From positions 62,001 to 126,000 of the forward strand of contig JAGXHG010000007.1 in the NCBI GenBank assembly GCA_024636345.1: a stretch of DNA of 64,000 bases, in the 5' to 3' direction. A program made the position numbers and the translations under genes. This document shows positions 8,977-23,460 of this stretch, one piece after another. The notes under the pieces are model-generated. The model did no database searches and had not been told where the DNA came from. It saw nothing but the letters and a program-made list of their open reading frames with translations. Each line of letters opens with the position of its first letter. Positions within the stretch are counted from its first letter, which is position 1. The DNA comes from Desulfobulbaceae bacterium (GTDB taxonomy: Bacteria > Desulfobacterota > Desulfobulbia > Desulfobulbales > Desulfocapsaceae).

Positions 8977-10752
8977 ATGAAAGTCTTGGTTGTAGGCTCT
9001 GGTGGACGTGAACATGCATTGGTGTGGAAGATATCTCAAAGCACCAGAGTCAAAAAGATCTATTGTGCGCCTGGGAATGCCGGGATAAAGCGTATGGCTG
9101 AGTGTGTGGATATTGCGGCCACTGATATTGATGCCCTGCTCCAATTTGCCCATCATGAAAAGATTGATCTGACCATTGTTGGTCCTGAATCGTCACTGGC
9201 TGCCGGAATCGTTGATCGTTTTGAGGAAGAAGGGCTACGTATCTTTGGACCGCGTAAGAATGCTGCTTTCCTTGAGGGGAGTAAGGTCTTTGCCAAAGAA
9301 TTCATGGAAAAATATGCCATTCCCACCGCCTCTTTCAAGGTCTTTGATAGCCTCAAAAAAGCTGGGAAATATATCGATCAGATTGGTGCTCCCCTTGTTG
9401 TCAAAGCAGATGGACTTGCGGCTGGTAAAGGTGTAATTGTCGCCACTACTATCAAGGAGGCCAAGGATGCAGTTGAACTCATTATGCAGGACAAGGCCTT
9501 TGGAGATGCCGGAAATAAGGTAGTTGTTGAAGCCTGTTTGCAGGGAGAAGAGGCGTCATTTATCGCCTTCACCGATGGCAAAACCGTACTCCCCCTTCCC
9601 ACATCCCAGGATCATAAAGCCATCTATGATGGGGACAAGGGACCGAATACCGGTGGGATGGGCGCCTATTCTCCTGCCCCTGTGGTAACCGAGGCCATCG
9701 CGGATTACGTCATGAACAAGGTGATGCTACCCACCATTCAAGGCATGGCCGCAGAAGGGCGGCCTTTCAAGGGGATGCTCTATGCCGGTTTGATGATTGA
9801 AGATAGCAAGGTTAAGGTCCTGGAATTTAACTGCCGTTTTGGTGATCCCGAAGCTCAGCCCTTGCTGATGCGTCTGAAGAGTGACGTGGTCGACATCTTT
9901 GAGGCCGTGATTGATGGATCTCTGGATACCATTGAGATGAAAATTGACCCCAGGCCAACTGTCTGTGTGGTGATGTCCTCCGGCGGATATCCGGGATCGT
10001 ATGATACGGGCAAGATCATAAAGGGGCTTGCCAAGGCGTCCAGGGAGGCCGGAGTCCAAGTCTTTCATGCGGGAACAGCAACGAAGAATGAACGGACGGT
10101 CACTGCTGGTGGCCGGGTTCTGGGGGTGACAGCAGTGGGTAAGACCCTTGAAAAGGCCATTGAACAAGCCTACAAGGCTGTGGACTGTATCCAGTGGACG
10201 GGTTGTTATTGTCGGCGTGACATAGGAGCGAAGGCCTTGCGGCGCCCTGAAAAACTGACAACACAGGCTCTGGTTGGTATTGTCATGGGTAGTGATTCGG
10301 ATCTGCCGGTTATGCAGGCGGCGGCGGATTTTTTGAAGAAGATGCAGATACCTTATGAGATGACGGTGGCATCAGCACATAGAACTCCTGAGAGGGCTGC
10401 CCGTTGGGCCAGTACGGCCCAGGGGCGTGGATTGAAAATTATTATAGCTGGAGCCGGGATGGCGGCCCATCTAGCCGGAGTCCTGGCCGCCCATACCGAA
10501 CTGCCGGTTATCGGCGTGCCCCTTGATGCCTCGCCACTCCATGGGATGGATGCTCTGCTGGCCACGGTGCAGATGCCACCGGGAATACCGGTTGCCACTA
10601 TGGCGATAGGAAAGCCAGGGGCCAAAAATGGTGCGGTCTTTGCCGCTCGAATTCTCGCCCTGGAAGATAAGGGAGTTGCGAGCCGATTGCAGGAGTTCAA
10701 ATTGGAAATGGTCAGAGAGGTTGAAGAAAAGGCTAGGAATATTGAAGGTTGA
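8977..10752 (+). CDS. purD-purE: PurD-PurE fusion (GAR synthetase plus AIR carboxymutase)
   Basis: A 591-residue two-enzyme protein. Residues 1 to about 425 are phosphoribosylamine-glycine ligase: MKVLVVGSGGREHAL, the ATP-grasp KADGLAAGKGV motif, PNTGGMGAYSP and EFNCRFGDPEAQ. From about residue 429 to the end is class I N5-carboxyaminoimidazole ribonucleotide mutase: GIVMGSDSDLPVM, the SAHRTPERAARWA catalytic segment, IAGAGMAAHLAGVLAA and a C-terminal helix. The two enzymes catalyse steps 2 and 6b of purine synthesis and are normally separate. The junction (RRDIGAKALRRPEKLTTQ) is continuous in frame, with no stop or internal ribosome site seen. It overlaps the next gene by 11 nt. Confidence 0.93.
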   Translation: MKVLVVGSGGREHALVWKISQSTRVKKIYCAPGNAGIKRMAECVDIAATDIDALLQFAHHEKIDLTIVGPESSLAAGIVDRFEEEGLRIFGPRKNAAFLEGSKVFAKEFMEKYAIPTASFKVFDSLKKAGKYIDQIGAPLVVKADGLAAGKGVIVATTIKEAKDAVELIMQDKAFGDAGNKVVVEACLQGEEASFIAFTDGKTVLPLPTSQDHKAIYDGDKGPNTGGMGAYSPAPVVTEAIADYVMNKVMLPTIQGMAAEGRPFKGMLYAGLMIEDSKVKVLEFNCRFGDPEAQPLLMRLKSDVVDIFEAVIDGSLDTIEMKIDPRPTVCVVMSSGGYPGSYDTGKIIKGLAKASREAGVQVFHAGTATKNERTVTAGGRVLGVTAVGKTLEKAIEQAYKAVDCIQWTGCYCRRDIGAKALRRPEKLTTQALVGIVMGSDSDLPVMQAAADFLKKMQIPYEMTVASAHRTPERAARWASTAQGRGLKIIIAGAGMAAHLAGVLAAHTELPVIGVPLDASPLHGMDALLATVQMPPGIPVATMAIGKPGAKNGAVFAARILALEDKGVASRLQEFKLEMVREVEEKARNIEG

Positions 10753-11870: not shown

Positions 11871-13556
11871 TTACTGCCTGATCAGTTGCCGGTATTTAAT
11901 GCGGTGTGGCTGGTCGGCTGCCGCCCCCAGTCGCGCCTTACGATCCTTTTCATAATCCGAGTAATTCCCTTCAAACCAGACAACCTGCGAATCGCCCTCA
12001 AAGGCCAGAATGTGGGTGGCGATCCGGTCAAGGAACCAGCGGTCATGGCTTATGACAACGGCACAGCCGCCGAAATTGACCAGAGCCTCTTCGAGTGCCC
12101 GCATGGTGTTGATATCCAGATCGTTAGTGGGCTCATCGAGGAGCAGGACGTTTCCTCCCTCTTTGAGCATTCGTGCCAGATGGACCCGGTTGCGCTGACC
12201 GCCTGAGAGCAGGCCAACCTTTTTCTGCTGGGCAGAACCTGAAAAATTGAATTTGGCCACGTAGGCCCTGGAATTAATCTCTTTGGTCCCGACCCAGACC
12301 GTTTCCTGGCCCTCAGAGACTGCCTCCCAAATCGTATGTTCAGGGTCAAGAATGTCGCGGCTTTGGTCAACGTAGGCAAGTTTGACCGTTTCACCCAGGC
12401 GGATAGTACCTGCATCGGGGGTATCCTGTCCGGTGATCATCTTGAAGAGTGTGGATTTTCCCGCGCCGTTAGGTCCAATGATTCCGACGATACCACCGGC
12501 AGGGAGCTTAAAATTCAGATCTTCAACGAGCAATTTGTCGCCCAGGCTTTTTCGCACATGGTCAGCCTCAATAACCACCTTGCCAAGACGTGGCCCGGGT
12601 GGGATAAAGATCTGCAGGTCCTGGGCAAGTTTTTCGGTCTCCTGGCTCAGCAGTTGCTCATAGGAGCTGATCCTGGCCTTCGATTTTGCATGTCTGCCCT
12701 TGGCAGACATCCGGATCCATTCGAGCTCCCGTTGCAGGGTGCGGCGCCGATCACTCTCTGATTTCTCTTCTGTAGCCAGCCGTTTTTCTTTCTGTTCCAG
12801 CCATGAGGAATAATTGCCCTTCCAGGGAATGCCGATACCCCGGTCAAGTTCCAGAATCCAACCGGCCACATTGTCGAGAAAATAACGATCATGGGTTACA
12901 GCAATAATGGTTCCCGCATATTGCTGCAGGTGCTGTTCCAGCCAGGAAACAGACTCGGCATCCAAGTGATTGGTGGGCTCATCGAGCAGGAGGACGTCCG
13001 GCTGTTTCAAGAGGATGCGGCAGAGTGCGACGCGTCGCTTTTCACCACCGGAGAGGATTGCGCACAGGGTTTCCGGAGCCGGGCAACGCAGGGCGTCCAT
13101 GGCCATTTCCAGTTTGCTGTCCAGGTCCCAGGCGTTCAAGGTGTCAAGCTTGTCCTGAACCTCGCCCTGTCTATCAATGAGTGCCTGCATTTCGTCATCA
13201 CTCATCGGCTCGGAAAACTTTTCATTGATGACGTTAAATTCATGGAGCAGGTCAACGGTACTCTGGACTCCTTCTTCAACGATCTGTCTGACTGTTTTTT
13301 CGGGGTCAAGTTGGGGTTCCTGATCCAGATAGTCGATGATAAGCCCGGGAGAGAGAATGATTTCTCCGTTAAATTCGGTATCAATGCCAGCCAGAATACG
13401 CAACAGTGTACTCTTACCGGAACCGTTCAGCCCCAGTACCCCGATCTTGGCCCCATAAAAATAGGAAAGAGAGATGTCTTTGAGGATGGGTTTGCTATCG
13501 TAAAACTTGCTTACCTTGATCATCGAATAGATAATCTTTTTGTCATCTGTACTCAT
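11871..13556 (-). CDS. ettA: Energy-dependent translational throttle protein EttA (ABC-F ATPase)
   Basis: 561 residues from the ATG at 13556, five codons inside the longest open frame. Two ABC cassettes: GLNGSGKST Walker A, LSGGEKRR signature and LLLDEPTNHLDAES Walker B, then IGPNGAGKST, LSGGQRNR and LLLDEPTNDLDINT. The inter-cassette linker (RRTLQRELEWIRMSAKGRHAKSKARI) is the P-site tRNA interaction motif of ABC-F proteins, and there is no membrane domain. EttA binds the ribosomal E site and gates initiation-to-elongation according to ADP/ATP. Length matches the family (about 555). Confidence 0.93.
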   Translation of the reverse strand: MSTDDKKIIYSMIKVSKFYDSKPILKDISLSYFYGAKIGVLGLNGSGKSTLLRILAGIDTEFNGEIILSPGLIIDYLDQEPQLDPEKTVRQIVEEGVQSTVDLLHEFNVINEKFSEPMSDDEMQALIDRQGEVQDKLDTLNAWDLDSKLEMAMDALRCPAPETLCAILSGGEKRRVALCRILLKQPDVLLLDEPTNHLDAESVSWLEQHLQQYAGTIIAVTHDRYFLDNVAGWILELDRGIGIPWKGNYSSWLEQKEKRLATEEKSESDRRRTLQRELEWIRMSAKGRHAKSKARISSYEQLLSQETEKLAQDLQIFIPPGPRLGKVVIEADHVRKSLGDKLLVEDLNFKLPAGGIVGIIGPNGAGKSTLFKMITGQDTPDAGTIRLGETVKLAYVDQSRDILDPEHTIWEAVSEGQETVWVGTKEINSRAYVAKFNFSGSAQQKKVGLLSGGQRNRVHLARMLKEGGNVLLLDEPTNDLDINTMRALEEALVNFGGCAVVISHDRWFLDRIATHILAFEGDSQVVWFEGNYSDYEKDRKARLGAAADQPHRIKYRQLIRQ

Positions 13557-13631
13557 GATAATACCTGTCAAAAAAATGGAAGAAAAAGGAGAAAATGGAA
13601 GATCTTCAAAAATACTAGAGAATACTCTGGA

Positions 13632-13676
13632 ATAAAAAAAAAAGGAAGAGACATACGTAGAGTACGCCTCTTCCTT
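13632..13676 (-). terminator. Rho-independent terminator of the rhodanese gene
   Basis: On the reverse strand AAGGAAGAGGCGTAC and GTATGTCTCTTCCTT form a 15-bp stem (with G-U pairs) around a 5-nt loop, followed by a run of ten T residues. It lies 25 nt past the rhodanese stop codon. Confidence 0.85.
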
Positions 13677-13700: not shown

Positions 13701-15032
13701 TTAGTCTGTTATGGTACAGTCATTGCCCTTACATGTAACAGCTCCAACCAGAAAAAAGGCCTTATAACCATTATTGTTCAACTCTTTGGCTGCCATATCA
13801 GCCCGTGCTCCGGTGGTGCAGTGAATATAGATCTTTTTGTCTTTGGGCAATTCTCCCATACGGCTTCCCACTTGGTCAAGAGGGATGGAAAAAGCATTTT
13901 TGTACTTTCCTGATGCGCTTTCATCCTTGGTGCGTACATCGAGAATAACGGCATCCGTGGCTTTACCATTGGCGACATTGAGGAAATCAGTCATGGAGAC
14001 CTCACCTTTTTCCAATTTCCGTTTCCAGTCGATGGTGGTGACCACAGGACCGCTTGTCGTCTCACCGCCGGACTTGATCCAGCCGTCAATATTTCCTGGA
14101 ACCAGAGAGACCTTTTTCAATCCTGCCTCATTCATATCCTTCATCGCACTCATAGCCTCTTCGGTGCTATCACTGTAGAGGATAAAAGGTGCTTTTTTAG
14201 GCAGGCTTTCTATCTTATCTTTGAGTGTGGCATAAGGGATGGTCACTGATCGTGGAATGCGACCAGCTGCTGATTTTTCTGCGGAACGCAGATCAATAAG
14301 TACTATGTTTCCTTTGCTGATAAACTCATTAGAGCCATAGGTAGGATGACCTGCCTTGCTCCATCCAGGTTCACCGTCCAGATAGACGCGAACATTCTTG
14401 TAGCCCAATTTTTTCGCCTGACCGGCGGAAGAAGTGGACATGCCTCACGTGGGGCCTCCGCAGTAAAAGATGAGGAGCTCATCTTTGTTTTCAGGGAGCT
14501 TGTTGGCCTGTTTTTCAAATTCATCGGATGGAATGTTGATGGCACCAGGCAGGTTCGATGCTGCAAAACGCTTTGCCGGGCGTGAGTCAATAAGGGTGAA
14601 TTTCCCTCCCTTATCCATTATTGTTTTCAGCTCGGGGGTCTTTACCTCGGTGACACCTTTCGGTAGTTTTGCCAGTTTTGGTTTGATGACGGTAGCCCAA
14701 GGTTCGCCCTTACGCATCTCATAATTGATAATGGATGCATGGCCGGCGACTGCATTTTCAATACCCTTGGTTTTATCATCAAATTTTACGAGGATGGTCT
14801 TGGTGGCTGCGCCTTTCCCAACTTCAATGGCAATGACTTTTGCTTTTCTTGACACATCCGCAACATTTCCCATATAGACCGGAACTTCAGCAAGAAGTAT
14901 ACTTCTTGATCCGCTGCCGGTTCCATGCTGGGCAATCAATTTTGGGGGAGTGGTTCCTGTCTGGGTACATCCTGTTGTTAAAAAGGATGCCATGATCAGG
15001 AAAGGAATAAATTTGATCAACTTTTTTTTCAT
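13701..15032 (-). CDS. Triple-rhodanese lipoprotein, probable selenoprotein (in-frame UGA read as Sec196)
   Basis: Two adjoining reverse-strand frames (to 14445 and from 14441) lie in the same register, separated only by a TGA. Read through, they give 443 residues. A lipoprotein signal ends at C22 (FLTTGC). An unassigned domain follows, then rhodanese domain 1 (about 132-235) with the loop FYCGGPT-Sec-GMSTSSAGQA. Related proteins carry Cys at that place in a C-x4-C pair, so C191 and Sec196 would form C-x4-U. Domain 2 (about 234-325) has lost its Cys (LYSDSTEEA). Domain 3 (345-443) keeps C405 in HCTTGAR. A GGAGGG ribosome site precedes the ATG. Domain homology runs unbroken across the TGA, so a nonsense mutation is unlikely. 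Predicted role: sulfane-sulfur transfer or redox at the cell envelope. Confidence 0.82.
14412..14447 (-). promoter_or_regulatory. Candidate bacterial SECIS hairpin after the UGA
   Basis: 21 nt after the TGA (14445-14447) the reverse strand has CGCC-GGTCA-GGCG, a 4-bp GC stem closing a loop that begins GGU; two U-A pairs can extend it below a bulged C. The E. coli fdhF SECIS has a GGUC apical loop 18 nt after its UGA, so loop sequence and spacing both fit recruitment of SelB-Sec-tRNA. Short stems occur by chance, so this supports the Sec reading without proving it. Confidence 0.6.
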
Positions 15033-15493
15033 TCAGCCCTCCAAGGCGCTTATGAGATGAGTTAAGTTCGCTGCAGTTAAATCATTTCAAGGTGATTGAA
15101 TCTGGGCGCGAACCGTTAATATTAAAATGACTAAATGCATTTTTTATACCAAATTATGAGAATACTTCAACATGCTGAATATTTGGAGTTAATATGATAA
15201 TTTCTATATTCGAAGTTGATATAACTGGTGCAAAAAAATCTAAGTTAGGCTAAGAAAAGAGAGTACTTCTGCACTCAGAAAGTGAGATGCTGTTGCTTCT
15301 TGTTTGTGTTTATATATTGTAATATCATGATGATATGTGATCGTCTCGTGCTTATTGTAGTTGAAGCTATCGTGCTTTCTAGGCAAGAGCAAATTTCTTT
15401 GCAACAAAGTTGAAGATGTAAAGGTTCCTTATTCTTCATTCAAACCCTACCCTTACACAGTTCACTGAGTAGCCTGATTAATTATAAATAATT
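15033..15493. other. Divergent intergenic region rhodanese / histidine kinase
   Basis: 461 AT-rich bases with no supported gene. It must contain the promoters of the rhodanese gene and of the kinase-regulator pair. I looked for a -24/-12 (TGGCAC-N5-TTGC) sigma54 site and saw none. Confidence 0.45.
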
Positions 15494-17824
15494 ATGAAAA
15501 TCCGTAGTTTTATTTTTTTGACCGTGATCGTCTTGGGACTCTTCCCTCTTTTCGTCCTGGTGGCGATGAATTTGCCAAAGACCATTGACCGCCTGGAGTA
15601 TGCGGCTGAACTTGAAACCCAGGCCAGATCTCAGGTGGATTTTGCCAAATTAAATGCCCGGATCCGTTGTCTGAAAAAAAGTCTTCTTCATTCGACAACG
15701 CTGCCATCTACTCTGGAAGTTGTCAATCATACAGGAGACAAGAAGGCACTGGCAGCCCTTTTTGTTAATTGGTTTGCTCTTAATGATCCAATCAGTGGTT
15801 TTTCCCTCTTTGACGCAGCCGGTCGTGAAACTCTTGGCTTTTTCAGGTCCCAGGGAGGACTTGCGGTACGTGAACCCAGGAAAGAAAGATTGGCCGGTTC
15901 TTTTTTGCGTGATTCCTTGGGATTAAAAGAAAACGAGATCTTTGTAGGTCTGGTGGATGAAAAAAATGACCCTTTACGCCTGACAGGTCGCGATGAATAT
16001 ACCCTGATTCTCCTTTCTGCAGTCAGAGAGGCTGAAATGCCGGCAGCTGGGGTACTCATGATGCGTATTGACATGTCAACCTTCCTTGAAAATTTCAAAA
16101 ATTCTTTATGGGTAACAGAAAATGGAACCTATCTGAAAGGATGTCAACTCGATGTGCAAGGGAGGAGAATCTACGAGGGTATCGGCAAAATAGGCGATTG
16201 CAATGCCTTTGAAGAATTTCCCGGACTGAAGAGTGAGGGCTGGAAAGGCGATCCGTTGATCCTTAAGGATAAGCGTCGTAATAAAATTGCCTGGATGCCG
16301 CTTATCTTTCATGCCGAAAAGCAGGCGGTTATGTGGGTGGGTACCGTAGTTGATGAGAGTGCCATTGAGTCATGGAAGTTCAGCTTGATGCTCAATGTGG
16401 TAGCGGTGATCTGTATGATGTCGCTTCTGGTCTTTTTTACGGCCAACTGGATTACGGTCAGGATCGATGCGATCCAGAAAGATCTGTTGGTCGGCCTTGA
16501 TGATATTATTAATAATGAAAAAAAGGTTGTTTTTGACTGGAAAGGTCCAGCGGAGCTGAAAGGCCTTGGTGATGATCTTACTTCATTTGCCACTCGTTAT
16601 ACTGATACTTGTAAGGCCAGGATGGTGGCCGAAGCAGCACTCAGGGAAAGTGAGGATAAATTTCGTAATCTTACGGCATCGGCCCTTGACGGTATTATCC
16701 TTATGGATCACGAAGGGAATATTGCTTATTGGAATGAAGCGGCGACAACAATTTTTGGTTTTCCCAGTGCTGAGGCACTGGGAAGTCCTATTCATCAATT
16801 AATTGATGCTCGCCGTGAAGGCGAAAGCCAAATTGTCCAAGGATTGGAAGGGAAAAATCTTGTTGGTGATTTTGCCCATACCGTTGAGCTGGTGGCCAGA
16901 AACAGGAATGGCAGTGAGGTGCTGGTTGAACTGTCCCTTTCTTCCACCCGAATCAGAAACAAATGGCATGCCATCTGGATCGTCAGGGATGTGTCAGAAC
17001 GAAAAAGGAGTGAGGAACAGGCCAGGAAGCAGCTGCAGCAGCTGCAGCATGCTGATAAGATGATTTCCCTTGGTCTGCTTGTGTCCGGTGTTGCCCATGA
17101 GATTAATAATCCTAATTCCATAGCCCTGCTAAATCTACCTGTCCTGGCACGTGCATGGGAATCAGTCAAGCCGATCCTTGATGAATTTTATCATGAAACT
17201 GGCGATTTTACAGTGGCTGGCGTTGACTATACAGTAATGCGTCAGCAGTTGCCGAGAGTCTGTGCGGAGCTGGAAGAAAGTGCGGCCAGGATCCGGCAGA
17301 TTGTGGTTGATTTGAAAGATTATGCCAGGGCTGAAACTAGCGGCCAGATGATCCAGGTGGACATTAATGATGTGGTTCAGTCAGCAGTACGCTTGACCAT
17401 GAATAGTATCCATCAAGCCACAAAACGCTTTACTGCCACTTACGCTGAAAATCTGCCCAAGGCCTTGGGAAACAGGCAGCGTCTGGTGCAAGTTGTTATC
17501 AACCTCATCCAGAACAGCTGTGAGGCCTTGGGAGAGAGCGGCCGTGCTATTGCTGTTGTTACCAGATATAACAGGGAAAGTGATGGGGTTGAGATTGTCA
17601 TTCGTGATGAGGGAAGTGGTATTGACCCGGATGTGGTGAATAAGGTGACCGATCCCTTCTTCACGACCAAACGGAATATGGGTGGTACTGGACTAGGGCT
17701 TTCAGTTTCAGCCGGTATTGTGAAAGAACATAATGGCATGATCCATTTTGATTCGATTTTGAACCTGGGGACAGAGGTTATTGTGAGTCTTCCTGCCCTC
17801 GGTGCATCAGCGGTGGAGAAATAA
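15494..17824 (+). CDS. Membrane-bound PAS sensor histidine kinase
   Basis: 776 residues. TM1 at about 6-26 and TM2 at about 305-330 bracket a periplasmic sensor region of some 275 residues that I do not recognise. A PAS domain follows (about 385-500: FRNLTASALDGIILMDHEGNI), a short coiled stretch, then HisKA with H535 in SGVAHEINNPNS. HATPase_c has the N box (NLIQNSCEAL), G1 (RDEGSGIDP), F box (FFTTKRNMGG) and G2 (GTGLGLSVSAGIVKEH). It is the likely partner of the sigma54 regulator 63 nt downstream. The ligand is unknown; sulfur compounds are a guess from the neighbourhood. Confidence 0.88.
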   Translation: MKIRSFIFLTVIVLGLFPLFVLVAMNLPKTIDRLEYAAELETQARSQVDFAKLNARIRCLKKSLLHSTTLPSTLEVVNHTGDKKALAALFVNWFALNDPISGFSLFDAAGRETLGFFRSQGGLAVREPRKERLAGSFLRDSLGLKENEIFVGLVDEKNDPLRLTGRDEYTLILLSAVREAEMPAAGVLMMRIDMSTFLENFKNSLWVTENGTYLKGCQLDVQGRRIYEGIGKIGDCNAFEEFPGLKSEGWKGDPLILKDKRRNKIAWMPLIFHAEKQAVMWVGTVVDESAIESWKFSLMLNVVAVICMMSLLVFFTANWITVRIDAIQKDLLVGLDDIINNEKKVVFDWKGPAELKGLGDDLTSFATRYTDTCKARMVAEAALRESEDKFRNLTASALDGIILMDHEGNIAYWNEAATTIFGFPSAEALGSPIHQLIDARREGESQIVQGLEGKNLVGDFAHTVELVARNRNGSEVLVELSLSSTRIRNKWHAIWIVRDVSERKRSEEQARKQLQQLQHADKMISLGLLVSGVAHEINNPNSIALLNLPVLARAWESVKPILDEFYHETGDFTVAGVDYTVMRQQLPRVCAELEESAARIRQIVVDLKDYARAETSGQMIQVDINDVVQSAVRLTMNSIHQATKRFTATYAENLPKALGNRQRLVQVVINLIQNSCEALGESGRAIAVVTRYNRESDGVEIVIRDEGSGIDPDVVNKVTDPFFTTKRNMGGTGLGLSVSAGIVKEHNGMIHFDSILNLGTEVIVSLPALGASAVEK

Positions 17825-19802: not shown

Positions 19803-20615
19803 TTATTCGTCATTTTTCTTTTCAGACAGTCCTTTAACAAGCATGGCGCCAGCCAGACCAAGCAGACCAAGATCTCTGGCCTTACGCATTGCTGGTTTAA
19901 ACATGGATGCCATCATCACACGGCGTTTGACACTGCTCATATCGGCCAACTCAGGGGTTTCATCCTGGAAGAGAAGAGTGATATCCTTCTTCTTACCATA
20001 GTAGCGCGAATTCGGCCCAATGCTGGCACCCTTAGGCTCCAGACCTTTGGCCCCTTTTGCCACATATTGAGCAACCTCTGATTTTGGATCATCAAGGTCA
20101 CCAAAGATACGGGCATTGGTAAGGCAGGTTTGAACACAGGCAGGAATTAGTCCGGCCTCAACACGGGGCATACAGTAAGTGCATTTGTCAGCCTTGCCGT
20201 CGGATGAGACATCATCGGTCAGGTAAGGGTTGACATACCGGGCACCATAAGGACAAGCATCTGCGCAGGCCCCACAGCCAAGACAACGGCTCTTGTCAAT
20301 CTGGACAGTTCCGTTAAAGGGATCTTTCCAGGTTGCAGCAACTGATAGGGTAGTGGTCTTACCCGTTTTTGCATCTTTAAAGGTTACATCTACCGGATCG
20401 GCAGGGCATGCATCCACGCAGGGTGGTTTTGCACAATGGTTACACAGACCAGGATAGTAGGTAGAGGCAAGCTCATCCCCCACCTTGCTGGGTCCGAGAC
20501 GGTGGACCCAGTTCCGGCCAAACTCAACCGGAACCTCCCACTCCGCCTTACAGGCTATGGCGCAGGCGTGGCAGCCTACACAGCGTTCTAGATCAATGAT
20601 CATTCCGTATTGCAT
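19803..20615 (-). CDS. Four-cluster ferredoxin-like electron-transfer subunit (PsrB/PhsB type)
   Basis: 270 residues with four [4Fe-4S] Cys groups: CVGCHACAIAC near the N-terminus, CNHCAKPPCVDAC, CLGCGACADACPYGARY and a last group around CTYC...CVQTC. This is the DmsB/PsrB/TtrB fold that wires a molybdopterin catalytic subunit to a quinol or cytochrome donor. The C-terminus is extended by about 55 residues ending in a short hydrophobic segment (LGLLGLAGAMLV), which might anchor it. AGGAGG precedes the ATG. No NrfD/PsrC membrane subunit is adjacent, so its electron donor is not evident. Confidence 0.88.
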   Translation of the reverse strand: MQYGMIIDLERCVGCHACAIACKAEWEVPVEFGRNWVHRLGPSKVGDELASTYYPGLCNHCAKPPCVDACPADPVDVTFKDAKTGKTTTLSVAATWKDPFNGTVQIDKSRCLGCGACADACPYGARYVNPYLTDDVSSDGKADKCTYCMPRVEAGLIPACVQTCLTNARIFGDLDDPKSEVAQYVAKGAKGLEPKGASIGPNSRYYGKKKDITLLFQDETPELADMSSVKRRVMMASMFKPAMRKARDLGLLGLAGAMLVKGLSEKKNDE

Positions 20616-20651
20616 CGAAAATATCCTCCTGAAAAAGGCTCAAGGTTTTGG

Positions 20652-22895
20652 TTAAGCTGGAATATCCAGGGCTTTACCATCCTTGGTCAGTTTAACAAAG
20701 TTGTTACGCATACCATGACATCCGGTCTCCGGGTCAATGGCGATCTTGGTGATCAGACTCTGGTCATCAACACCCTTGCCGACACCTGCGGTCATCAGTG
20801 GGTTGGCAGATCCATAGCCATGGTACATATAAACAGCATCTTTTCTGATGCCTGGTGTCACCTTGACCGTGGTGGTGGTGCGGGATTTGACCCCTTCACT
20901 GTTGATAAAACCAACGGTGTCACCATCTTTCAAACCAAGTTTGGCGGCAACTTCATCATTGAGCCATACAGGATTGCCTGGCATCTCATGATTCAACCAG
21001 ACGTTATTCTGGCTGCGGTTGAAGGTGTGTACCGGGGCACGGCCGTAAAGCAGTCGGGCATAACCAGCTGGCACATCTTCCACTGCCTTATAGGTCGGTG
21101 CGCCGGGGAAACCGGCAGCGGCAACGTCTTCGTTAAACAACTGAACCATGAAGTCTTCAGGCACACCATAAGGAGAGAATCCTGGCTGGAGATGAATGCC
21201 GCCCTCGGCCTTAACTGATGCCAAGGTGATATTGGCTGAAGCCAGGGTCTTGTCCACAAGCTCTTCCAGGGTCTGAACCGGAATCTCTTTCTCGTGGCCC
21301 ATACGCTTGGCGATTTCGTTAGTAATATAGACCTGATCCTTGCGTTCGAACATGGCCGCTACCAAGGGCATACGGGGGGCGATGAACTGGGTTGGCTCCT
21401 TGTCAGTTGCCTTCACCTTGCCAACTCCGGTTTTGATCTCGTCGTGACGCTCAAGATAGGAGGACTCAGGCAAAAGAATATCGGCCCACATGGTGACATC
21501 GGTAGGCATAACATCGACGCACATGACAAAATCCATGGCGTTGAAAACCTGCTTCATCTTCTCCTGTTTGGGGATGGTCTGCATGGGGTTTTGACCCCAG
21601 ACCACACAACCCTTGATTGCATAAGGCTTACCGCTGATCGCGCAGTCACGGATCAATTCGGTTGGGGTTCCAGGAGGTTTGAAAGGATAAACCTTTTTAT
21701 CGTTGATGACGTTGAGGTTAAACTCATCGCCATGCTCTTGGGGGGCCCAGCTGGTCTTACCCAGTTTGGCAGGGTTCTTGGGTGGAACCCAGCCGCCTTT
21801 TACATAGTAGGCACCAAGGAGTGCAGTCAAACAGGCAAGGGACCGTTCACGCTGGAAGTCATTGCCGTACCAGGAAACGTGACGGCCTGGATGGATGGCC
21901 ACATTCGGGGCATTGGCAGCAAGCAGCTCAGCCACTTCCTTGATCTGGGCAGCAGGGATATCACACTCTTTGGCTGCCTTGTCCAGGGTCCATTCGGAAA
22001 TGGCCGTGGAAAATTTGTCAAAGCCGGAAGTATGCTTGGTCACAAACTCTTTGTTATACTTATTGTTTTGAACCAGGTAGTTCATGATTGCCAGCAGATA
22101 CGCAGTATCGGTGCCTGGCTTGATCTGTACCCAGATGTCAGACTTGGCAGCAGAGGCGGAGTAGCGTGGATCGGCTACAACCAGTTTCGCGCCGCCCTGC
22201 AGACCTTTCATATAGGACTTGATGTGGGAGACATGGATGTTTTCACCCAGATGGCTACCAACGAGGAAGATGACCTTGGTATTGGACATATCAACCATCT
22301 CACCAGGGGCCTTGCCGATGGTTGCCACATAAGCGGCGTCGCGGATACCGCGGCACTGGAAGAAGGATGCCTCGCTCACATTGTGGGTGCCCACCGTGCG
22401 CTCAAAGTAGTGCATTGGATATTTGGCTGATGCGCCATGAGGAAACACGCAGATTCCCTGCGGTCCATGCTGATCAACAACTGCCTTGAGTTTGGAGCCG
22501 CACTCATCGAGTGCCTCCTTCCAGGAAATACGTTTCCATTTAGGCTCGCCGCGTTTCCCAACGTTTTTCAAGGGGTATTTCAAGCGGTCCACATCGTAGA
22601 GCAGTTTGACACCGGCGTTACCGCGGGCGCAGATGGCTGTACCATTGTCAATGGACTTGGGGTTACCCTCAAGTTTCATCAACTGTCCATCGCGAACCTT
22701 GCCCACCAGCTGACAGCGCCAGAAACACATTTCGCACAGTCCGCCGACCACAGTTGTGTCGCCCATGGTGCCCTTTGGTTCAAGGGACGCCTTGGCAACA
22801 CCTGTTTCTGCGGAGACGACCTTGGACAGCGGTATCGTGGCTGCTGCCAGGGATGCCGTCTGAAGGAACTTACGCCTCGTTAAGTTGAAAGCCAT
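20652..22895 (-). CDS. Molybdopterin oxidoreductase catalytic subunit, polysulfide/thiosulfate reductase type
   Basis: 747 residues from an ATG at 22895 with AGGAGG upstream. A Tat signal (TRRKFLQTASLAAA) sends it folded across the membrane. The N-terminal CEMCFWRCQ...C binds a [4Fe-4S] cluster. EASFFQCRGIRDAA contains the Cys expected to ligate Mo/W, as in PsrA, PhsA and TtrA. ILLPESSYLERHDE and the C-terminal dinucleotide-binding domain are typical of the family. Substrate could be polysulfide, thiosulfate, tetrathionate or arsenate-like oxyanions; sequence alone does not decide. It overlaps its chaperone gene by 26 nt and is 36 nt from the Fe-S subunit. Confidence 0.85.
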   Translation of the reverse strand: MAFNLTRRKFLQTASLAAATIPLSKVVSAETGVAKASLEPKGTMGDTTVVGGLCEMCFWRCQLVGKVRDGQLMKLEGNPKSIDNGTAICARGNAGVKLLYDVDRLKYPLKNVGKRGEPKWKRISWKEALDECGSKLKAVVDQHGPQGICVFPHGASAKYPMHYFERTVGTHNVSEASFFQCRGIRDAAYVATIGKAPGEMVDMSNTKVIFLVGSHLGENIHVSHIKSYMKGLQGGAKLVVADPRYSASAAKSDIWVQIKPGTDTAYLLAIMNYLVQNNKYNKEFVTKHTSGFDKFSTAISEWTLDKAAKECDIPAAQIKEVAELLAANAPNVAIHPGRHVSWYGNDFQRERSLACLTALLGAYYVKGGWVPPKNPAKLGKTSWAPQEHGDEFNLNVINDKKVYPFKPPGTPTELIRDCAISGKPYAIKGCVVWGQNPMQTIPKQEKMKQVFNAMDFVMCVDVMPTDVTMWADILLPESSYLERHDEIKTGVGKVKATDKEPTQFIAPRMPLVAAMFERKDQVYITNEIAKRMGHEKEIPVQTLEELVDKTLASANITLASVKAEGGIHLQPGFSPYGVPEDFMVQLFNEDVAAAGFPGAPTYKAVEDVPAGYARLLYGRAPVHTFNRSQNNVWLNHEMPGNPVWLNDEVAAKLGLKDGDTVGFINSEGVKSRTTTTVKVTPGIRKDAVYMYHGYGSANPLMTAGVGKGVDDQSLITKIAIDPETGCHGMRNNFVKLTKDGKALDIPA

Positions 22896-23460
22896 CTTCC
22901 TCTTCCTCCTTTGTAAAAGAATCAATTAGGGTTACAACCATCCTGTAATAAGGATGGCGGGTTTCTTCTGCGACTCGGGGGCAAAATTGTTTGTACCAGG
23001 GTCGAAACAGCTTGCTGAGAAATTCTTCCTCTCCGGCAAAATCTTCTTCTTTAGCCAGGAGTGACAAGAATTCAAGTTCGTGAACCAGGTGATCAGGGAG
23101 GTCTGCATTGTCCTCCATTGTAAACCCTTTTTCGCGGTAAAAGTTCAGGGTTCTAAGGGCAAAGGATCCCTGAATGGATTTGTCCATGTAAACAGAGGCA
23201 AAGGGCGGAGCGACCACGTGGGGAACGCCATTTATGAACAACCGAGTGTATTCTATCTGCAGGTCTTCAATAAAGTCTGAAGATTTTTCCACAGCGTCTC
23301 GTATCTCTTTTCCTTCTGTTATAGCGCCAAAAGTACCCAGAAGATTGTAGAAGACATTAAAAAAATCTTCGTTCATCCATTCGGGGTCAGGGTATTGCAT
23401 GCATTGGGCCATGAAGCGATAAAGAGAGGCAATGTCCTGAGATGTGGTTGATTCTGTCAT
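22870..23460 (-). CDS. TorD/DmsD-family molybdoenzyme chaperone
   Basis: 196 residues, starting at MTESTTSQDIASLYRFMAQC; a longer frame to 23526 adds 22 unlikely residues. All-helical, with the TorD-type YPDPEW segment, EYTRLFINGVPHVVAPPFASVYMD (the conserved E-x2-RLF...P-x2-S/E-S-Y motif) and a C-terminal FLSKLFRPWYKQF. It should bind the Tat signal of the downstream catalytic subunit and delay export until the cofactor is inserted. Being first in the operon with an overlapping stop/start suggests translational coupling. Confidence 0.85.
   Translation of the reverse strand: MTESTTSQDIASLYRFMAQCMQYPDPEWMNEDFFNVFYNLLGTFGAITEGKEIRDAVEKSSDFIEDLQIEYTRLFINGVPHVVAPPFASVYMDKSIQGSFALRTLNFYREKGFTMEDNADLPDHLVHELEFLSLLAKEEDFAGEEEFLSKLFRPWYKQFCPRVAEETRHPYYRMVVTLIDSFTKEEEEDGFQLNEA

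Follow-up and report, generated by a model that had tools for sequence, protein, structure and literature searches.

An in-frame TGA codon in a three-domain rhodanese gene of a sediment-dwelling Desulfobulbaceae bacterium most probably encodes selenocysteine (Sec), placed at the end of a C-x4-U active-site loop, and we put the probability of this reading, drawn from comparison of sequences, at roughly 0.93. The gene lies on the reverse strand of the window, by which is meant the whole stretch of 64,000 nucleotides that was analysed. Homologues with Cys or Sec at the codon, the selenocysteine machinery of the genome, and a hairpin just past the codon all agree with the main claim of an earlier note on this DNA, that the TGA stands for selenocysteine. 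That the product is a selenoprotein, taken as one part of the best explanation developed below, would be close to certain, and the chemistry proposed for it is much more tentative.

Read through the TGA, the gene gives a product of 443 residues with the loop FYCGGPTUGMS, in which C191-G-G-P-T-U196 forms the C-x4-U pair (Table 1). The position of the codon within a rhodanese domain, the length of the joined protein, and the C-x4-U pair are exactly as the earlier note had described them. Under translation table 11, the same DNA yields two open reading frames of 195 and 246 amino acids, the first of which breaks off partway through a rhodanese domain. Both flanks of the TGA have a low dN/dS ratio; in the comparison with the relative L005, for example, dN is 0.046 and dS 0.515 upstream, and dN is 0.060 and dS 0.421 downstream, and all four comparisons put dN far below dS both before and after the codon, which bears out the statement that conservation continues past the codon. 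The signals for expression and export had also been called intact, and this holds for the ribosome-binding site GGAGGG and for a terminator-like stem followed by a T-run but not fully for the lipobox (LTTGC), which is imperfect. The terminator scan is weak when taken alone because shuffled sequences average 1.8 terminator-like sites vs. the 2 found.

Table 1. Features of the predicted selenocysteine rhodanese gene, in window positions.
Feature	Position	Strand	Remarks
Complete gene, 443 codons + TAA	13701..15032	-	TGA taken as selenocysteine; full-length relatives have the same TGA
Start codon ATG; stop codon TAA	ATG 15032; TAA 13701-13703	-	
TGA codon 196, read as selenocysteine, rhodanese active-site loop position 6	14445..14447	-	TGA in 107/128 distinct relatives, TGC/TGT in 21
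Cys191 codon, residue 1 of loop C-G-G-P-T-U	14460..14462	-	Cys in 128/128 aligned proteins
SECIS hairpin core CGCC-GGUCA-GGCG	14415..14427	-	20-32 nt past the first base of UGA
Longer stem predicted to enclose the SECIS core	14403..14439	-	Minimum-energy fold -13.1 kcal/mol, 50 nt
Apparent signal peptide to Cys22 (LTTGC)	14967..15032	-	By eye; predicted
Rhodanese domain 1 (Sec domain), residues 134-226	14355..14633	-	Best Pfam PF00581 stretch
Rhodanese domain 2, degenerate, residues ~235-320	14073..14330	-	Pfam stretch, limits estimated; YSDS replaces the Cys loop
Rhodanese domain 3, loop C405-T-T-G-A-R410, residues ~339-430	13743..14018	-	Profile matches 3nta/4ocg
Ribosome-binding site GGAGGG	15037..15042	-	4 nt ahead of ATG; read from sequence
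Intrinsic terminator	13642..13676	-	Stem of 15 pairs, then T8

The TGA is shared by most relatives of the gene. A homologue scan of genome contigs returned eight loci, with TGA at the same codon in seven (L004-L008, L010, and L011) and TGC in the eighth (L009), and one of the TGA copies (L010) belongs to a named strain, Desulfogranum japonicum DSM 18378. Family matches at E 1e-60 or better were present in 94 of the 144 genomes searched, the window genome included; by hand count, 80 of these 94 genomes (again with the window genome) hold at least one TGA copy and 11 hold at least two. Across 297 genomes searched in the phylum, matches at 1e-30 were present in 26, and the set already included some of them. 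With seven duplicates of the same genome removed prior to counting and L108 left out (a TGA was seen there, but no match passed the filter), 130 distinct loci were collected, of which 107 carry TGA, 22 carry TGC or TGT, and one carries GAG, and neither TAA nor TAG occurs at the codon among the 130. The GAG row (L122), a contig fragment without the loop, and L159, a divergent copy in which the first loop Cys is lost, were dropped to give a set of 128 (107 Sec and 21 Cys). Cys does align with the TGA in this set, but the expectation of the earlier note that homologues usually have Cys at the position is reversed, with 107 Sec vs. 21 Cys. In contrast to the set of 128, Cys was found in 20 of 26 newly fetched three-domain loci of a further set (family f39 of the same phylum) among the matches listed, with TGA in the other six. 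The f39 loci were taken from the best matches listed, which gave 10 further stretches in addition, including L219 (no loop row) and L220 (no loop). Some variation was also seen within the loop: residue 194 is Pro ahead of T-U in 74 of the 107 Sec proteins and Val in 11 of 22 Cys proteins (L159 included), a possible linked change, and in L159 itself (genome G421), the loop of domain 1 is shortened and Cys191 is lost, with a TGA copy in the same genome.

Bacterial SECIS elements follow a rule of a hairpin just downstream of the UGA with a G in the apical loop. At the place of the core listed in Table 1, all four pairs are formed in 107/107 Sec genes and in 2/21 Cys genes, the loop G at +25 is present in 107/107 and 6/21, respectively, and stem and loop G occur together in 107/107 Sec genes vs. 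1/21 Cys genes. When the partner strand was slid by one to three bases in either direction, not a single Sec gene retained four pairs. Synonymous randomisation that kept the amino acids and the codon usage (300 runs) produced a mean of 12.3 stems per 107 genes, with a maximum of 21, and a mean of 102.6/107 for the loop G; the stem and not the loop G therefore carries the evidence, because the amino acids mostly explain the loop G. Compensating changes were seen at the outer pair (CG, TA, GC, TG, and AT) and the inner pair (CG and AT), and the third-position entropy of codons 6-10 past the TGA was 0.23-0.80 bits in Sec genes vs. 1.53-1.92 bits in Cys genes, the Cys set for this measure being 22 genes with L159 still included. 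Similarly, among the f39 three-domain loci in the matches listed, the stem was found in 6/6 TGA genes and 2/20 Cys genes. The pairing averaged 2% over 264 other offsets, with the caution that an offset of -41 also pairs in 71% of the Sec genes. A single fold of 61 nt was no better than its shuffles (z -0.52), and the hairpin evidence is therefore the conservation of the core and not the longer stem; likewise, the Rfam matches in the region all fell below threshold, so the SECIS was judged by conservation. As far as sequence conservation can do so, this settles that the hairpin would direct read-through of the UGA as selenocysteine. In three Cys genes (L030, L033, and L088), the hairpin is still largely present, and Sec appears to have been lost recently. 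A second Sec paralogue was noted in eight of the 11 genomes with at least two TGA copies (L112, L113, L115, L116, L121, L124, L126, and L131), in which a SECIS loop CGGCG replaces GGUCN.

The TGA could instead be a true stop in a split gene, with a 195-aa product followed by a 246-aa product reinitiated at the ATG at 14441, and exactly these two open reading frames are given by table 11, with the ATG only 3 nt past the TGA. In addition, the available text of the Desulfocapsa sulfexigens genome paper lists UWK_03368 and UWK_03369 as neighbouring rhodaneses, which is how pipelines would annotate such a gene. Against this, the first product would be cut short within a rhodanese domain, 21/128 relatives have Cys at the codon, the ATG is replaced by Leu in 22 and by Phe in one of the 107 Sec genes, and selection for a stop would permit TAA or TAG, neither of which was seen at the codon. 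The retention of the hairpin with its loop G in 107/107 TGA genes vs. 1/21 Cys genes also argues against a stop, and a split gene is consequently considered very improbable. A pseudogene or a one-base sequencing or assembly error has a negligible probability: the assembly behind the window is indeed a draft (41 contigs, 83.1% complete), but an error at the TGA, which the earlier note had named as a ground for refutation, is excluded because 107 distinct genes share the codon, with L010 from a named strain, and the low dN relative to dS on both sides in 4/4 comparisons speaks against a pseudogene.

Decoding as selenocysteine is further consistent with the gene content of the window genome, in which selA (634 bits), selB (394 bits), tRNA-Sec (the selC product, 69.1 bits), and selD were all found, as the earlier note had proposed to check. 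The selD gene (L181, G000:C9:23604-24545) has one in-frame TGA of its own and is probably a second selenoprotein gene; a crude look around this TGA did not pick the codon out. By hand count at the thresholds used, selB or tRNA-Sec was detected in 77 of the 80 genomes with a TGA copy, and neither was detected at these thresholds in the other three (G018, G057, and G079), which are in about 130 contigs or more each. Across all 144 genomes, selB and tRNA-Sec were each found in 126, and the co-occurrence of machinery and TGA copies hardly discriminates because nearly all relatives have the machinery with or without a TGA copy.

Exchange between Sec and Cys has occurred repeatedly in this family. 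A maximum-likelihood tree, built quickly from the 128 proteins with the Sec column left out, without bootstrap, and with some long rows, gave 13 Sec/Cys changes counted without direction, 10 of which are forced by well-supported branches; shuffled Sec/Cys labels on the same tree gave a mean of 19.7 changes. The change can be found between close relatives, for example, in the pair L031 (Sec) and L030 (Cys), with end branches of 0.035 and 0.044. Cys stands in for Sec many times over, so Sec is not an absolute requirement, and exchanges in such close relatives offer a natural system for what selenium buys a rhodanese and for the decay of the SECIS after the loss of Sec.

The joined protein matches Pfam PF00581 in three stretches, at 127.9 bits against a cut-off of 22.2. 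Column 287 of domain 2 is Ser, Gly, Ala, Asp, Thr, or Asn in 127/128 proteins, and two Cys residues with one to six residues between them lie within the last 25 residues in 94/128. AlphaFold prediction from eight sequences (mean pLDDT 62.2) gave a secondary structure consistent with three rhodanese domains, in which residue 196 opens the helix after the strand 186-190, as in a rhodanese loop. The pLDDT of loop residues 192-195 is below 50, and the N-terminal region was not interpreted because confidence is low for residues 1-121. The best Foldseek matches include 1yt8, 6mxv, EanB, and YnjE, and a profile of eight members matched 6mxv best over domain 1 (3.2e-21) and, over domain 3, the rhodanese domain of NADH-dependent persulfide reductases (3nta/4ocg, 1e-17). 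The earlier note had considered a triple rhodanese with a degenerate middle domain unusual; the three stretches and the absence of the Cys from domain 2 stand, but the architecture is less unusual than claimed because YnjE and EanB are solved multi-domain rhodaneses of similar length. The lipoprotein assignment is no more than plausible. A signal peptide is apparent by eye, and the protein is apparently exported, whereas lipidation is uncertain because LTTGC has Thr at -3, where the lipobox consensus is [LVI][ASTVI][GAS]C. Cys occupies the Cys22 column in 62/128 proteins, and a crude lipobox pattern, which may miss start codons, was counted in 45/128, the window protein not among them; the protein is possibly lipid-anchored.

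The function proposed here was not based on an operon, as no neighbour recurs widely across genera in the 22 neighbourhoods compared (L166 and L176 yielded no gene), in which neighbours differ between genera. In the window, the gene is flanked by an ABC ATPase (11871-13571), which we take to be of the ABC-F type, and by a divergent PAS histidine kinase (15494-17824). A molybdopterin oxidoreductase and a 4Fe-4S protein are encoded about 5 kb away (19803-22925, reverse strand), and a TAT molybdopterin oxidoreductase of the same cluster as that of the window comes directly after the Cys homologue L178. Elsewhere in the window (8977-10752, forward strand), a single 591-aa open reading frame fuses PurD (GARS N, A, and C) and PurE (AIRC).

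The residues of the active-site loops are informative for function. In the available part of a survey of solved structures, the loop-end residue of 13 rhodaneses is Arg in eight, Thr in three, and Ser in two, and Arg or Thr at this place promotes the splitting of thiosulfate (PMC8533005). Domain 1 was considered as a thiosulfate sulfurtransferase, a role that needs Arg, Thr, or Ser at loop position 6, and was rejected; this position is Sec or Cys in 128/128 proteins, which suggests a redox site rather than a thiosulfate enzyme. Domain 3, unlike domain 1, has Arg at loop position 6 in 122/128 proteins, and its Cys405 is present in 126/128, with gaps in the other two. In the proposed mechanism, UGA codon 196 would be decoded by SelB and tRNA-Sec, directed by the hairpin just downstream in the coding sequence. 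Cys191 would then accept sulfane sulfur from polysulfide, from thiosulfate, or from domain 3, where Cys405 would carry it as a persulfide. Attack on Cys191-S-SH by the U196 selenolate would free sulfide and leave a Cys-Se bridge to be reduced by a periplasmic thiol or by the C-terminal Cys pair. Domain 1 might thus act as a selenol-dependent persulfide reductase or sulfur relay, with domain 3 as its loader, an ordinary sulfurtransferase domain. We infer both the persulfide chemistry and the partner that would reduce the bridge, and the role as a whole, periplasmic persulfide or polysulfide handling by a C191/U196 selenenylsulfide redox pair, is a tentative proposal to which we give somewhat less than an even chance.

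A real selenoprotein may also have a plainer domain 1, one that works as a simple sulfurtransferase or binds a metal or selenite instead of reducing persulfides, and this is a serious alternative, although one that falls a little short of even odds. All three domains are rhodanese by Pfam, domain 3 retains C-x4-R, and the 13 Sec/Cys interchanges on the tree indicate that Sec is not strictly needed; for a binding site, an analogy can be drawn with the Geobacter rhodanese ExtH, which belongs to a selenite/tellurite reduction cluster in the available text of the study (PMC5877670). However, the replacement of the thiosulfate-splitting Arg or Thr by Cys or Sec in 128/128 points to redox chemistry, when set beside the available account of the loop-end residue (PMC8533005). 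Alternatively, the Sec or Cys at loop position 6 could mark a protein that serves a periplasmic molybdoenzyme, such as a polysulfide or thiosulfate reductase, as its disulfide or electron-transfer partner and is not a free-standing enzyme. The oxidoreductase and Fe-S protein of the window and the gene directly after L178 would fit this arrangement, as would a highly expressed Desulfurivibrio operon that combines genes for rhodanese, molybdoenzyme, and polysulfide reductase, so far as the available text describes it (PMC5516251), but of the 22 neighbourhoods, only those of the window gene, of its near relative L160, and of L178 have a molybdoenzyme of that cluster close by, and such a partnership appears improbable.

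Taken in its widest form, the selenol-dependent reductase would represent a widespread and unnamed family of periplasmic selenoenzymes in those Desulfobulbales that reduce sulfate or disproportionate sulfur and in other members of the phylum, in which domain 3 would be charged, the Cys-x4-Sec site of domain 1 would reduce, and annotation would cut the gene in two; this full combination is rather unlikely as it stands. If true, it would supply a missing step of persulfide or polysulfide reduction in the elemental sulfur pathway, with the approximately 13 natural exchanges of Sec and Cys serving as controls. The family is common in the order (94/144 genomes), and because the standard code splits the gene at the TGA, such a periplasmic sulfur protein is easily overlooked. 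The link of the family to sulfur disproportionation stays a suggestion, since SseA-type rhodaneses do not track that metabolism in the available part of a 2026 survey (PMC12998232).

Selenocysteine rhodaneses are already known, and what is new is the three-domain architecture: no published description of a three-domain Sec form was found in a search covering openly licensed papers. Five forms of rhodanese selenoprotein are distinguished in the available text of a 2026 review, the first of which is a rhodanese-like domain-containing selenoprotein (PF00581, UxxS, WP_010941598.1) (PMC13188914). The window protein has everything that marks form 1, namely PF00581, one Sec, and a U-x-x-S motif (UGMS), and differs from it in having three rhodanese domains and an N-terminal region over 443 aa; by this motif alone, the sequence would be linked to WP_010941598.1. 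The short single-domain rhodaneses L211-L217, found in the f39 set among the matches listed, are 133-155 aa long with C-x4-U followed as UGQS or URGS, have a signal-like start by eye, and, judged by sequence, probably represent form 1, and L218 of the same set has UGKS and a second rhodanese-like domain. The Sec of these single-domain look-alikes aligns with that of the window protein, and the hairpin geometry is full in six of L211-L218, with three of the four pairs in L211 and L216. The Desulfocapsa sulfexigens genome paper, in the part available, lists nine rhodaneses, including the neighbours UWK_03368 and UWK_03369, and our guess is that these two are the halves of one such gene; a family member was also seen in genome G037 at 3.74 Mb.

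Two other named forms share single traits with the window protein. In TsoB (NF045694, form 5, UxxxxU), the printed motif probably also places a Sec at loop position 6, but the motif and the name of TsoB indicate two Sec residues, one at each end of the loop, and a DsbD-like part, whereas the loop of the window protein opens with Cys; membership was rejected, as the model aligns only residues 130-235 and scores 42 bits against a cut-off of 805. Similarly, rhodanese_LYCAU (NF041203, form 3) has, like the window protein, a rhodanese domain and is titled a '(seleno)protein' family, but its motif is CxU, with Sec two residues past the Cys instead of five, and the window protein, with its C-x4-U, was excluded from it at 81 bits against a cut-off of 115. 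Among solved structures, YnjE (3ipo/2wlr) and EanB (6ktv) are rhodanese chains of about 410-430 aa that we take to have three rhodanese domains each, and to our knowledge, neither holds Sec. Their Foldseek alignments run for 411-436 columns along the model of the window protein, whereas the global superposition is poor (TM ~0.2), and the match is therefore one of domain folds only. A likeness in the loop itself is seen in BH2092 (3nhv and 3o3w), a rhodanese whose chain is 126-144 aa long and aligns over one domain, in which the Cys-x4-Cys of a CWGPAC loop aligns with the C-x4-U of the window protein and Cys stands where the window protein has Sec.
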